A DNA stretch of 64,000 bases from Bacteroidota bacterium (GTDB lineage Bacteria; Bacteroidota; Bacteroidia; Chitinophagales; Chitinophagaceae). Under the pieces are notes generated by a model, which saw nothing but the letters and a program-made list of their open reading frames with translations, had not been told where the DNA came from and did no database searches. Positions 2,027 through 16,520 of the stretch are shown in pieces. The first letter of the stretch is position 1, and the number at the start of each line of letters is the position of its first letter. Where the stretch lies: positions 1-64,000 of the forward strand of contig JAGWVE010000005.1 of the NCBI GenBank assembly GCA_018971025.1, in the 5' to 3' direction. The translations under genes and the position numbers were made by a program.

Positions 2027-3952
2027 ATGATTTCCCCTAATACCATACAACAAATCACCAGCCGCATCGATATCATTGATATTGTGGGTGAGTTTGTGAA
2101 ACTTAAAAAAAGGGGGACCAATTATTTAGGCAATTGCCCTTTCCACAACGAAAAATCTCCATCTTTTACCGTATCTCCTGTAAAAGAAATTTACAAATGT
2201 TTTGGTTGTGGTAAAAGCGGCAACTCCATTACATTTTTAATGGAGCATGAAAAATATAGTTATGTAGAAGCGTTAAGATGGCTCGCTGCTAGATACAATA
2301 TTGAAATTGAAGAAACAGAAACTTCGCCTGAGCAAAAAATATTAGTACAAACATCGGATAGCTTATATGCGATCAATCATTTTGCGCAAAAGTTTTTTAG
2401 CACCCAATTACTAGATACCGAAGAAGGAAAAAATATTGCACTCTCCTATTTGCAAGAAAGAGGATTTAGAAAAGAGATCATTGAAAAATTTCAGATTGGA
2501 TATAATCCAGATCATAGAACTGCATTAACAGAAGCACTACTTGCCAATCAGTTCAATCCTACCCTGCTTCCAAAAACCGGACTTGTTGCAAATAGAAATG
2601 GCGACGAACTCGTAGACAATTATAGAGGTCGAATTATTTTTCCCATTCATGGCAACACCGGAAAAGTGATTGGATTTGGAGCGCGCGTTATTGGAAAATC
2701 TGATAGAGGTCCTAAATACATCAATACCCCCGAAAACGAAGTATACAGCAAGAGTAAAATTTTATACGGATCCTACTTTGCAAGAATGGCCATTGATAAG
2801 GCTGATGAGTGTTTACTGGTTGAAGGCTACACCGACGTTGTGAGCTTACACCAAGCCGGTATCGAAAACGTAGTAGCAAGTGGAGGTACTTCACTAACCA
2901 CCGAGCAACTGAGGCTCATTAAAAAATATACCCAAAACCTAACCATTATTTATGATGGGGATAGTGCCGGTGTTAAAGCAGCCCTTCGAGGTCTTGATAT
3001 GGCACTGGAAGAAGGGCTTAATGTTAGGCTTGTGCTTATCCCCGACAACGAGGATCCGGATAGTTATGTCAATAAAGTTGGCACAACTGCATTCAATGAA
3101 TTTGTAGCGACGGCTAAAAAAGACTTCATCATTTTTCAACTTGAAGTCATGCTTCAAGAAGCTGGCGGAGACGTGAGCAAAAAAAGTGCGGTTGTCAATC
3201 AAGTAGCAGAAACACTGAGTAAAATAAATAAGGCCGAAGATTTTACCAAGCAACAAGATTATATTAGAAAATGTGCAAGCCTACTTCGCATAGATGAAAC
3301 GGGGCTCACCAACCTTGTCAATAAATTTAAACGCGACATTCTTGTTAAGCAAGAAAAAAAGATGCCGTTTGATGAGGCACAACAAATACTTGAAGGTCAG
3401 CAAGCGCCTGAATTTGACGAAGGTGCTGCACTCGTTAATCAAGACGATATTTATGAGAAGAATTTAATACGCGTATTACTCGATTACGGCTTATTAAAAT
3501 TTGATGAACATAAAACAATGGCCGATTATATTTTTGAAGAATTAGAGCAATTTGATTTTGACAATGAACAGTATGTTCAGCTCTATCAAATTTATAAAAG
3601 CTGGTATGACAAAGGATTAGAGCCTACTTCTAAAACCCTACTCTACCACGATGATGAAAATATTAGAAACATGGTGGTCAACTTAACCGTATCACCACAC
3701 GAACTCAGTTTAAAATGGGATACCATTTTAGAAGGTATGAATATCGTTAATAGAGACACTTCTATGGAAGACGTAACCATGAGTGTCAATTATTTTAAAC
3801 TTCGGAAAATCAAAAAGATGTTTGACCAAAACCAACAAGACATGGAAAATGCAGGTTTTGAAGAACAAATGAGGCTTATTGAATTACACAAACACCTCAA
3901 AGACATTGAAAGAGAGATAACCAAAAAAATTGGAACGGTTATCATCAAATAA
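2027..3952 (+). CDS. dnaG: DNA primase DnaG
   Basis: Synthesises RNA primers at the replication fork together with DnaB helicase. The N-terminal zinc-binding domain is visible (C37, H40, C58, C61 in CPFH...CFGC). The core carries a TOPRIM fold with EGYTD (E266, D270) and the metal-binding pair D310/D312 in YDGDSAG. RGRIIFPI and GFGAR are typical of the catalytic core. The 641 aa is normal for Bacteroidota primases; the C-terminal helicase-interaction region is divergent, as usual. It stands alone on the plus strand and ends at a hairpin terminator shared with the convergent small gene. Confidence 0.97.
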   Translation: MISPNTIQQITSRIDIIDIVGEFVKLKKRGTNYLGNCPFHNEKSPSFTVSPVKEIYKCFGCGKSGNSITFLMEHEKYSYVEALRWLAARYNIEIEETETSPEQKILVQTSDSLYAINHFAQKFFSTQLLDTEEGKNIALSYLQERGFRKEIIEKFQIGYNPDHRTALTEALLANQFNPTLLPKTGLVANRNGDELVDNYRGRIIFPIHGNTGKVIGFGARVIGKSDRGPKYINTPENEVYSKSKILYGSYFARMAIDKADECLLVEGYTDVVSLHQAGIENVVASGGTSLTTEQLRLIKKYTQNLTIIYDGDSAGVKAALRGLDMALEEGLNVRLVLIPDNEDPDSYVNKVGTTAFNEFVATAKKDFIIFQLEVMLQEAGGDVSKKSAVVNQVAETLSKINKAEDFTKQQDYIRKCASLLRIDETGLTNLVNKFKRDILVKQEKKMPFDEAQQILEGQQAPEFDEGAALVNQDDIYEKNLIRVLLDYGLLKFDEHKTMADYIFEELEQFDFDNEQYVQLYQIYKSWYDKGLEPTSKTLLYHDDENIRNMVVNLTVSPHELSLKWDTILEGMNIVNRDTSMEDVTMSVNYFKLRKIKKMFDQNQQDMENAGFEEQMRLIELHKHLKDIEREITKKIGTVIIK

Positions 3953-14482: not shown

Positions 14483-14752
14483 ATGGCAACTGCAAAAAAA
14501 GCTGCTAAGAAAGCTGCTCCTAAGAAGGCTGCTGCTCCTAAAAAAGCTGCTAAAAAAGCTGCTCCTAAGAAGGCTGCTAAGAAAGCTGCTCCTAAGAAAG
14601 CTGCTAAAAAAGCTGCTCCTAAGAAGGCTGCTAAAAAAGCTGCTCCTAAGAAAGCTGCTAAAAAAGCTGCTCCTAAGAAGGCTGCTAAAAAAGCTGCTCC
14701 TAAGAAAGCTGCTAAAAAAGCTGCTCCTAAGAAAGCTGCTAAAAAGAAGTAA
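14483..14752 (+). CDS. Histone H1-like Lys/Ala/Pro repeat protein
   Basis: An 89-aa protein built from only five amino acids (M, A, T, K, P). After MATAKKAAKKAAPKKAAAPK, a nine-residue unit AAPKKAAKK runs to the end in about eight copies. Such tails resemble the C-terminal domain of histone H1 and bacterial HC1/HC2-type proteins, which bind and compact DNA through charge. It has its own promoter-like sequence and a strong terminator, so it should be a single-gene transcript. The DNA repeat means copy number may vary between strains. The antisense serine-rich ORF is a shadow. Confidence 0.88.
   Translation: MATAKKAAKKAAPKKAAAPKKAAKKAAPKKAAKKAAPKKAAKKAAPKKAAKKAAPKKAAKKAAPKKAAKKAAPKKAAKKAAPKKAAKKK
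14510..14752 (+). repeat. 27-bp coding tandem repeat
   Basis: Units of GCTGCTCCTAAGAA(A/G)GCTGC plus TAAAAAA repeat about eight times inside the H1-like gene. Copies differ mostly by AAA/AAG and spacing is kept in frame, so gain or loss of units would only change protein length. Confidence 0.85.
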
Positions 14753-14783
14753 TCTTAGTTTAGCTTTAGCTAAAATAGATTTA

Positions 14784-14814
14784 GAAGTCCCGCAATCCTG
14801 CGGGACTTTTTTTT
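14784..14814 (+). terminator. Hairpin terminator of the H1-like gene
   Basis: Perfect stem AAGTCCCGCA/TGCGGGACTT with a 4-nt loop and a run of eight T. It is the strongest hairpin in the window. Confidence 0.93.
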
Positions 14815-14843: not shown

Positions 14844-16520
14844 ATGACCAACGAAGCGATTGCAGATAATTTCTCCCTCCTCTCCAAATTAATGGACATA
14901 CATGGCGACGATGCCTTTAAGGCCAAATCCTATGCCAGCGCGGCTTTCACGATAGACAAACTAGAAACAGAATTGTCTACCCTAGACCCGCAAACCATTT
15001 TCTCACAGCGTGGCATTGGTGCAACAACGGGTAAAAAAATTATTGAACAATTAGAAACAGGACAGCTCGAAATATTAGACGACTATATCCAAAAAACGCC
15101 AGCAGGTATTTTAGAGATGCTGCGCATTAAAGGTATCGGTCCAAAAAAAATAGCAACCATTTGGAAAGAATTAGAAATTGAAACACTGGGTGAATTATTG
15201 TATGCTTGCGAAGAAAACAGATTAACACTTTACAAAGGCTTTGGCGAAAAAACGCAGGGCAACATCAAAGCGTCTATCGAATTTTATTTAAACGCGCAGG
15301 GTAATTTTTTATACGCGCAAATGGAACCCGTGGTAGAACTTTTGCAAGAGAAATGGACCGAACATTTTAGTGACGCTAGCTTTTTTGTAACGGGTGCTTT
15401 TAGACAGCAGCAGGAGGTTATTACCATTTTGGAGTGGGTAACGGACCAAGCATTAGCCCCCCTAGAAAGTTTTTTTGAAGAAAATAATTTCGAAATTCAG
15501 TCCAGTACCCCAAATTATTTAGAAGTCACTTCACAAGAAAATAGCACCCTCGGTTTTCATATCGTAGACACTAAAAATTTAGTGACGACCCTATTTAAAA
15601 CCAGTTGCGCACCTGGTTTTTTAGAAAAAATAAACGAAAGGGTGCCCGGAGGGCTTTTACAAAGCTATATTTCAGAAAAAGACATCTTTGCGGCAGCCAA
15701 TATCCCGTATATCGAGCCTTATTTAAGAGAAGACGCTAGCATTATTGATTTGGCGACTAGTAAAAGCCTACCTACCGTAATTGTACCCTCCGATATTAAA
15801 GGCATTATTCATAGCCATAGTAAATGGAGCGATGGCTCTAACACCCTTTTAGAAATGGCTACGGCTGCCAAAGCAAAAGGGCTCGAATATTTAGTGATTA
15901 GCGATCACTCTAAATCGGCATTTTATGCAAGTGGTTTACAAGAAGACCGCATAACCGCTCAGCACAAAGAAATAGATCAGTTAAACGTAGCGTTGGCCCC
16001 TTTTAAAATATTTAAAAGCATTGAGAGCGATATTTTAAATGACGGAAGCCTCGATTATGCGCCCGCTATTTTACAAAGTTTTGATTTAATTATCGCATCG
16101 GTGCATTCGAATTTAAAAATGCAGGAAGAAAAAGCCATGCAAAGGCTTATTACTGCCATCGAAAATCCGTACACCAATATTTTAGGTCATTTAACCGGCA
16201 GATTATTATTGAGCCGTAAGGGCTACCCCGTTGATCATCAAAAAATTATTGATGCCTGCGCTGCAAATAATGTTGTCATAGAATTAAACGCCCATCCGCG
16301 CCGCTTAGATATTGATTGGCGCATGATTGGAAAAGCACTAGATAAAGGCCTACTTATTTCCATTAATCCGGACGCACATGCCATAGAAGGCTTTGAAGAT
16401 TGCAAGTATGGCGTTTTAGTTGCTCAAAAAGCGGGTGTAACCAAAGAAAACAACCTTAGTAGCTACACGCTGGATGCCTTTGAAAAATGGGTTGCTACGC
16501 AGCAAGCGAAAAGAAAATAG
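14844..16520 (+). CDS. PolX-like protein: HhH plus PHP domain, decayed polymerase palm
   Basis: 558 aa from the ATG at 14844; the longer frame begins at a TTG inside the terminator region. Layout: 8-kDa-like and helix-hairpin-helix parts (RGIGATTGKK at 56-65, IKGIGPKKIA at 95-104), a family-X palm region (about 155-265), and a C-terminal PHP phosphoesterase domain from about 315. The PHP metal ligands look intact (HSHSKWSD 323-330, SDH 353-355, ESD 394-396, VHS 420-422, NPDAH 508-512). In the palm, the GSxRR...DxD signature is replaced by GAFRQQQEVITILEWV (184-199). It therefore probably keeps 3'-5' exonuclease or AP-endonuclease activity but not DNA synthesis. Confidence 0.88.
   Translation: MTNEAIADNFSLLSKLMDIHGDDAFKAKSYASAAFTIDKLETELSTLDPQTIFSQRGIGATTGKKIIEQLETGQLEILDDYIQKTPAGILEMLRIKGIGPKKIATIWKELEIETLGELLYACEENRLTLYKGFGEKTQGNIKASIEFYLNAQGNFLYAQMEPVVELLQEKWTEHFSDASFFVTGAFRQQQEVITILEWVTDQALAPLESFFEENNFEIQSSTPNYLEVTSQENSTLGFHIVDTKNLVTTLFKTSCAPGFLEKINERVPGGLLQSYISEKDIFAAANIPYIEPYLREDASIIDLATSKSLPTVIVPSDIKGIIHSHSKWSDGSNTLLEMATAAKAKGLEYLVISDHSKSAFYASGLQEDRITAQHKEIDQLNVALAPFKIFKSIESDILNDGSLDYAPAILQSFDLIIASVHSNLKMQEEKAMQRLITAIENPYTNILGHLTGRLLLSRKGYPVDHQKIIDACAANNVVIELNAHPRRLDIDWRMIGKALDKGLLISINPDAHAIEGFEDCKYGVLVAQKAGVTKENNLSSYTLDAFEKWVATQQAKRK

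Follow-up and report, generated by a model that had tools for sequence, protein, structure and literature searches.

The polX gene of the window (the whole stretch of 64,000 nucleotides analysed here, from a Bacteroidota bacterium of the family Chitinophagaceae) encodes a noncanonical PolX as defined by Prostova et al. in 2022. A loss of the polymerase site with retention of the PHP nuclease had been proposed in the first-pass annotation, and the proposal holds: the catalytic triad reads I-E-G, the dNTP-binding motifs are gone, and nine PHP ligands are present. Because the protein has the altered triad, the substituted dNTP residues, the intact PHP site and the 8 kDa domain that characterize the class, the observation is correct and already known; it is also ordinary for the clade. 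The protein is very probably a metal-dependent PHP 3'-end nuclease carrying a dead palm-fingers body, with synthesis done elsewhere, and this nuclease-only reading, the best of those considered, matches a published and biochemically tested class (PMC9226535). The inherited 8 kDa, helix-hairpin-helix (HhH) and dead palm-fingers body would hold gapped or broken DNA; the PHP site would trim 3' ends that are damaged or mismatched, and possibly also cut AP sites; and DNA synthesis would be left to another polymerase.

Noncanonical PolX are described as having an altered triad, a degraded dNTP site, deletions and an intact PHP domain, and they form 27.5% of the Prostova et al. collection (PMC9226535). 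Most of them fall in one cluster, mainly from Bacteroidetes and Deinococcus-Thermus; Bacteroidetes are a main holder, most Bacteroidetes PolX are noncanonical, and genomes holding canonical and noncanonical PolX together are reported (PMC9226535). The activity reported there as measured is a 3'-5' exonuclease. Two Deinococcus members, one of them the D. radiodurans PolX (2w9m), are described as Mn-dependent 3'-5' exonucleases with no polymerase activity (PMC9226535), and a 2026 survey agrees on the class (PMC12926913). Exonuclease activity of the window protein would follow by analogy with these two relatives measured by others; its substrate choice, as set out above, and a scaffold role of the dead palm are presumed.

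Sequence of the palm and of the PHP site

The polX frame runs on the forward strand, as do all features given here, from an ATG at 14844 to a stop codon ending at 16520 (558 aa plus stop). In its own genome (2.0 Mb in 117 contigs, 93% complete) the only match of the protein is the protein itself. The 8 kDa N-terminal domain (residues 1-75, 14844..15068) matches Pfam HHH_8 with 50.7 bits (cut-off 30), and the HhH region (residues 90-143, 15111..15272) matches HHH_5 with 40.2 bits (cut-off 27). The degenerate palm (about residues 151-240, 15294..15563, bounds drawn from the alignment) is recognized by alignment, strands of the structure model and dN/dS; the Pfam palm model found no match in the protein at E up to 1, and the thumb model gave 16.5 bits, below its cut-off of 25. 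The PHP domain (about residues 319-550, 15798..16493) is identified by its ligands, by superposition on YcdX (1m65), and by a Pfam PHP match over residues 323-484 (30 bits, cut-off 26.4). With the NCBIfam PolX model the protein scores 383 bits, below the cut-off of 426, and a PHROGs search returned no match. By sequence, the closest solved relative in PDB is D. radiodurans PolX (2w9m, E 4.3e-74), followed by T. thermophilus PolX (E 1.8e-60). An assembly error or pseudogene is ruled out by the open frame, by relatives at 96% and 90% identity, and by a dN/dS far below 1.

The protein was aligned with 12 live-palm PolX and with 71 distinct relatives from across the order; the 71 were picked by their similarity score to the window protein, and canonical enzymes were thereby excluded beforehand. 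Where the live enzymes have D-D-D, the window protein has I195-E197-G237. GDID is replaced by TILE, with I195 at the first and E197 at the second acid position (15426..15434), and VDxR by LGFH, with G237 at the third (15552..15554). GSxRR has become GAFRQ (residues 184-188, 15393..15407), YFTGSK has become KTSCAP (residues 252-257, 15597..15614), and the position equivalent to N279 in the dNTP site is L260. Substitution of GSxRR and YFTGSx and a hydrophobic residue in place of N279 are the published marks of a degraded dNTP site (PMC9226535). Residues 184-199 read GAFRQQQEVITILEWV, just as the first-pass annotation had them, and its statement that the third Asp and the TGSK region are unrecognizable is borne out by LGFH and KTSCAP. 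A search of the alignment for catalytic aspartates elsewhere in the palm found none; the sole acid left is E197.

None of the 71 relatives has the three triad acids, and all 71 have the full nine-ligand PHP set, so that chance or a sequencing slip is unlikely. As many as 44 different triads occur among them, positions 1 and 3 being widely variable; 64/71 retain an acid at position 2, and G184 is present in 71/71. On these last two counts the palm motif has decayed without vanishing, which qualifies the earlier claim that it was lost: the triad and dNTP motifs are altered, but remnants persist. The proposed alignment to date the loss places the same state in every inspected relative across the order; it points to no recent local loss, and a lineage-specific loss is ruled out. 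The region is also shorter. Between the GSxRR motif and the third acid position lie 53 residues, compared with 59 in four live enzymes; between that position and the first PHP histidine lie 86, compared with 101 in three live PHP-bearing enzymes. These shortenings of 6 and 15 residues were measured from motif to motif rather than within the domain bounds of Prostova et al., whose cut-offs are 77 and 55 residues.

The nine PHP ligands (HHHEHHEDH) are H323, H325, H355, E394, H421, H449, E480, D510 and H512. The seven listed earlier as intact were all correct; H449 and E480 were missing from that list. In Bacillus PolX, mutation of R469, R474, N498, R503 or K545 is reported to cripple the nuclease (PMC6616362). 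The counterparts of this basic path in the window protein, mapped by spacing and motif, are R453, R458, N482, R487 and K529, and they are kept in 71/71 relatives; at the K529 position all 75 canonical rows have R and nuclease-only PolX have K. The sixth Bacillus PHP residue, F440, corresponds to L424, and L is found there in 65/71 relatives. AP-site activity is reported for PHP domains of canonical PolX (PMC6616362), and by analogy the window protein possibly shares it.

Fold, selection and genomic setting

Structure prediction and superposition, suggested as a check in the first-pass annotation, indicate that the PolX fold is retained. AlphaFold2, given the window protein and 57 canonical relatives (27-32% identity), returned a confident model (pLDDT 93.1, pTM 0.85) with strands at the triad positions; since the alignment held only canonical relatives, the model is pulled toward the canonical fold. 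Foldseek matched it to T. thermophilus PolX 3au6_A (TM 0.83, rmsd 4.6) and to 2w9m_B (TM 0.66). With VIA-align 2, 3au6_A superposed with Z 43.6 over 543 residues (rmsd 4.5) and YcdX 1m65 with Z 28.4 over 222 residues (rmsd 1.9). According to this confident model, the protein is predicted to keep the whole PolX body, including the palm and fingers fold. The notion of a stand-alone nuclease thus survives in part: the enzyme is nuclease-only, but its 8 kDa and HhH domains match Pfam and the model keeps palm and fingers.

Selection was estimated by domain (Nei-Gojobori dN/dS, 15 pairs of nuclease-only PolX, domain bounds chosen by the analyst). Between the window protein and its two closest relatives, the values were 0.033 and 0.038 for 8 kDa plus HhH, 0.032 and 0.061 for PHP, 0.081 and 0.143 for palm, and 0.121 and 0.205 for the fingers-linker part; selection is therefore strongest on the DNA-binding and PHP parts. 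Palm dN/dS could be computed in 12 of the 15 pairs, ranging from 0.044 to 0.240, and was above that of PHP in 11 (the exception is L050-L057). Being higher than PHP yet low, it suggests relaxed selection on the dead palm with some constraint remaining, as a scaffold would show. In Thermus, Nakane et al. in 2009 reportedly found both the polymerase core and PHP to be required for the exonuclease.

The same palm values, below 0.25 in all 12 pairs, together with the position-2 acid in 64/71 and G184 in 71/71, could be taken as signs of a polymerase site with a changed but surviving activity, such as terminal transfer through the remaining acid E197. With 44 triads among 71 relatives, none having three acids, and with the dNTP motifs gone, this is highly improbable; moreover, the Deinococcus members with altered triads are reported to be polymerase-inactive (PMC9226535). 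The gene adds a further example of a PolX whose conserved function is the PHP nuclease rather than synthesis.

A terminator-like hairpin found by consensus scan (14783..14810, forward strand) ends 33 bases 5' of the polX start codon; a strong hairpin so near the start leaves little space for a separate promoter. Within the genus, rplU lies upstream of the nuclease-only polX at every one of the 18 places where 990 bases or more precede the gene (contig ends cut off five further places), so the gene occupies a conserved core position. Between rpmA and polX in the window there is an 89-aa lysine/alanine-rich gene resembling a histone H1 tail (14483-14752, forward strand), made of a 27-base unit repeated about eight times in tandem at 14531-14745. 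One assembly (G015) has two different nuclease-only PolX copies (L010 and L034), one at a contig end and the other downstream of rplU, possibly from mixed strains.

Matches to the window protein were found in 161/248 genomes of the order sample, in which the window's family accounts for 59 matches in 60 genomes; triads were read from a subset of the matching sequences, namely the 71 aligned relatives. Three of the 161 genomes have other than a full-length nuclease-only PolX: a 151-aa N-terminal frame (G033), a PHP-only frame (G034) and a canonical PolX (G186). In the larger family sample 298/324 genomes match a polymerase query at all, nuclease-only PolX included, which makes about nine in ten the better figure for nuclease-only PolX.

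That the enzyme is an end-processing nuclease of NHEJ, partnering Ku and LigD, is suggested by a report that NHEJ genes are enriched where noncanonical PolX is present (about 49% versus 19% in Bacteroidetes; PMC9226535). In the order sample the Ku association is weaker than these figures: Ku is present in 41/158 genomes with nuclease-only PolX versus 14/90 without (p 0.08, not significant; G033, G034 and G186 placed on the "without" side). Ku was found in one of the eight genomes of the genus in this sample (G246) and was not found in the window's own genome, so that the link stressed by Prostova et al. does not apply here. The NHEJ role is unlikely for the window enzyme, and a PHP nuclease conserved where Ku could not be detected speaks against the view that PolX is kept for NHEJ alone.

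PHP-less PolX and the split-enzyme question

Three members of the window's genus (G010, G003 and G021) have, beside the nuclease-only enzyme, an additional PolX of 340-350 aa with live-palm motifs and no PHP. The motifs are GSLRRKKETIGDID, GSLRRKKETVGDID and GSLRRKKDTIGDID, VDIR or VDCR, and YFTG; the genes are L031 (1756-2805, reverse strand), L032 of G003 (2307-3332, forward) and L033 (2336-3358, forward). In the G010 protein HHH_8 (45.9 bits, cut-off 30), HHH_5, palm and thumb all score over the cut-off. It ends about 20 residues past the thumb model, and five further PHP-less proteins match it in aligned length. The G003 gene (also L117) comes from a record titled Sphingobacterium thalpophilum, but its contig falls in the window's genus and a Sediminibacterium MAG carries the PolX with which it clusters; the label looks wrong.

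A strong live-palm PolX match was found in 31/324 genomes of the family sample, plus one fragment (G851). PHP is absent in 17 of the 31, intact in 13, and changed in its ligands in one (G191, locus L078, intact polymerase triad with RQRLNNECQ at the PHP site). Eight of the 13 PHP-intact enzymes have Q at the first ligand position, as in T. thermophilus. A second live-triad PolX of Niastella vici (L218) has the PHP site QHCDVHAGR, and the live-triad PolX of Chitinophaga qingshengii (L219) has QHHEHHEDR and a shortened N-terminus. Around the 17 PHP-less genes, out to 1.5 kb, no separate PHP frame of at least 100 aa was found. In a scan of named genomes, at least seven PHP-less loci (L111, L113, L115-L118 and L122) occur among the best 80 of 563 confirmed stretches, including the isolate Lacibacter cauensis, which holds both genes; the rest of these 80 keep PHP, L139 with a broken frame. 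Beyond these best 80, PHP-less PolX may occur in other phyla as well. Interrupted frames were seen in that canonical L139 copy (a Thermocrinis MAG) and in nuclease-only PolX of G200 and G182, with a TAA within the match. In the phylum sample (395 genomes) the sole live-palm PolX above 50% identity is from the window's family (G154); other classes have canonical PolX of about 570-670 aa.

The exonuclease domain has been called obligatorily present in prokaryotic PolX (PMC9226535). The Prostova et al. collection includes 10 sequences of less than 400 residues (PMC9226535), some of which could be PHP-less. No description of a PHP-less, 8 kDa-bearing bacterial PolX was found in the open-licence literature, a weak basis for such a statement.

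In a tree built from the polymerase cores of PHP-less (23 distinct) and PHP-bearing (24) PolX (47 rows, to which the mutated-PHP copies do not belong; G191 is a long branch in another tree), 22 PHP-less enzymes form one group (97/97). The G010 enzyme pairs with a PHP-bearing one, G850 (96/97), inside the same clade as the 22. The best tree thus has at least two PHP deletions, and PHP-less enzymes as one group appeared in 0% of 200 bootstrap trees. The AU test gave p 0.065 (47 rows) and p 0.15 (29 rows) against a single loss, so that a single deletion is not rejected, though narrowly with 47 rows. The G010 protein keeps a linker absent from other PHP-less PolX, which fits a separate deletion.

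The neighbourhoods of 13 PHP-less and 10 other live-palm loci, which differ in length, were compared (genomes G010, G003, G021, G232, G159, G194 and G260 among them; L068-L074, L220-L224). A baeRF family 3 gene is near 8/13 PHP-less and 4/10 other loci, and YdjM is near 9/13 versus 0/10. Universal stress, PLD, BON, HSP20 and CHAD genes occur near some live-palm loci, and such surroundings resemble a stress island. The nuclease-only gene lies apart from these loci, downstream of rplU-rpmA.

A nuclease-only PolX might act in trans with a PHP-less, polymerase-only PolX, the two together replacing one bifunctional enzyme. The coexistence of both in G010, G003 and G021, the presence of nuclease-only PolX in 22 of the 23 PHP-less genomes found, and the loss of PHP by at least two deletions in the best tree, besides the ligand changes in G191 and the second Niastella vici copy, speak for it. 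An early count, in which 7/7 PHP-less genomes were accompanied, had looked strong. However, no live-palm PolX was found in the window's own genome; in the PHP-less genome G827 (99% complete) nuclease-only PolX was not found; accompaniment in the family is alike for 16/17 PHP-less and 12/13 PHP-intact genomes (p = 1); and the AU value of 0.065 leaves a single loss standing. Such joint replacement is therefore rather unlikely, and an obligate pairing is weakened by G827 and by 16/17 versus 12/13. Since nuclease-only PolX is common in the family, accompanies 12/13 PHP-intact enzymes and was not found in G827, a division of labour is only possible. The broader proposal, that family X repair in Chitinophagaceae is split over two genes, with trimming and filling in trans (a parallel to eukaryotic Pol beta, which lacks an own nuclease), nuclease-only PolX in about nine in ten genomes, polymerase-only PolX in 18/324 and PHP lost several times independently, is put forward tentatively, as a possibility with a little more in its favour.

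Live-palm PolX that shed PHP in the same family as the nuclease-only enzymes are natural single-function halves of one enzyme. With such halves, the question of why bacterial PolX fuses polymerase and PHP becomes testable, for example in Lacibacter cauensis. This PHP-less mirror enzyme is the part worth specialist attention.

Comparison with known PolX enzymes

The closest known systems are the noncanonical PolX such as that of D. radiodurans, with which the window protein has in common the altered triad, the degraded dNTP site, the nine-ligand PHP and the 8 kDa domain. They differ in the triad itself, reported as AEE in D. radiodurans (PMC9226535) and I-E-G here, and in that Ku was not found in the genome of the window; the biochemistry of the class is known from Deinococcus members only. 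Canonical PolX (T. thermophilus 3au6, B. subtilis) have the same domain order, predicted fold, PHP ligands and basic path; they also have the catalytic triad, GSxRR and TGSK, all three of which are gone from the window protein.

Two further groups resemble one half each. The PolX-like proteins of Actinobacteria share a PolX-type PHP domain and the lack of polymerase function; as described, they are missing the entire polymerase region along with some of the 8 kDa domain (PMC12926913), both of which the window protein has. PolX2 of bacteria and viruses is, like the PHP-less relatives, a live polymerase without PHP (PMC12926913). As described there, PolX2 is without the N-terminal domain and carries an additional helical domain at its C-terminus; HHH_8 and HHH_5 are both present in the G010 protein, the one PHP-less enzyme scanned for this comparison.
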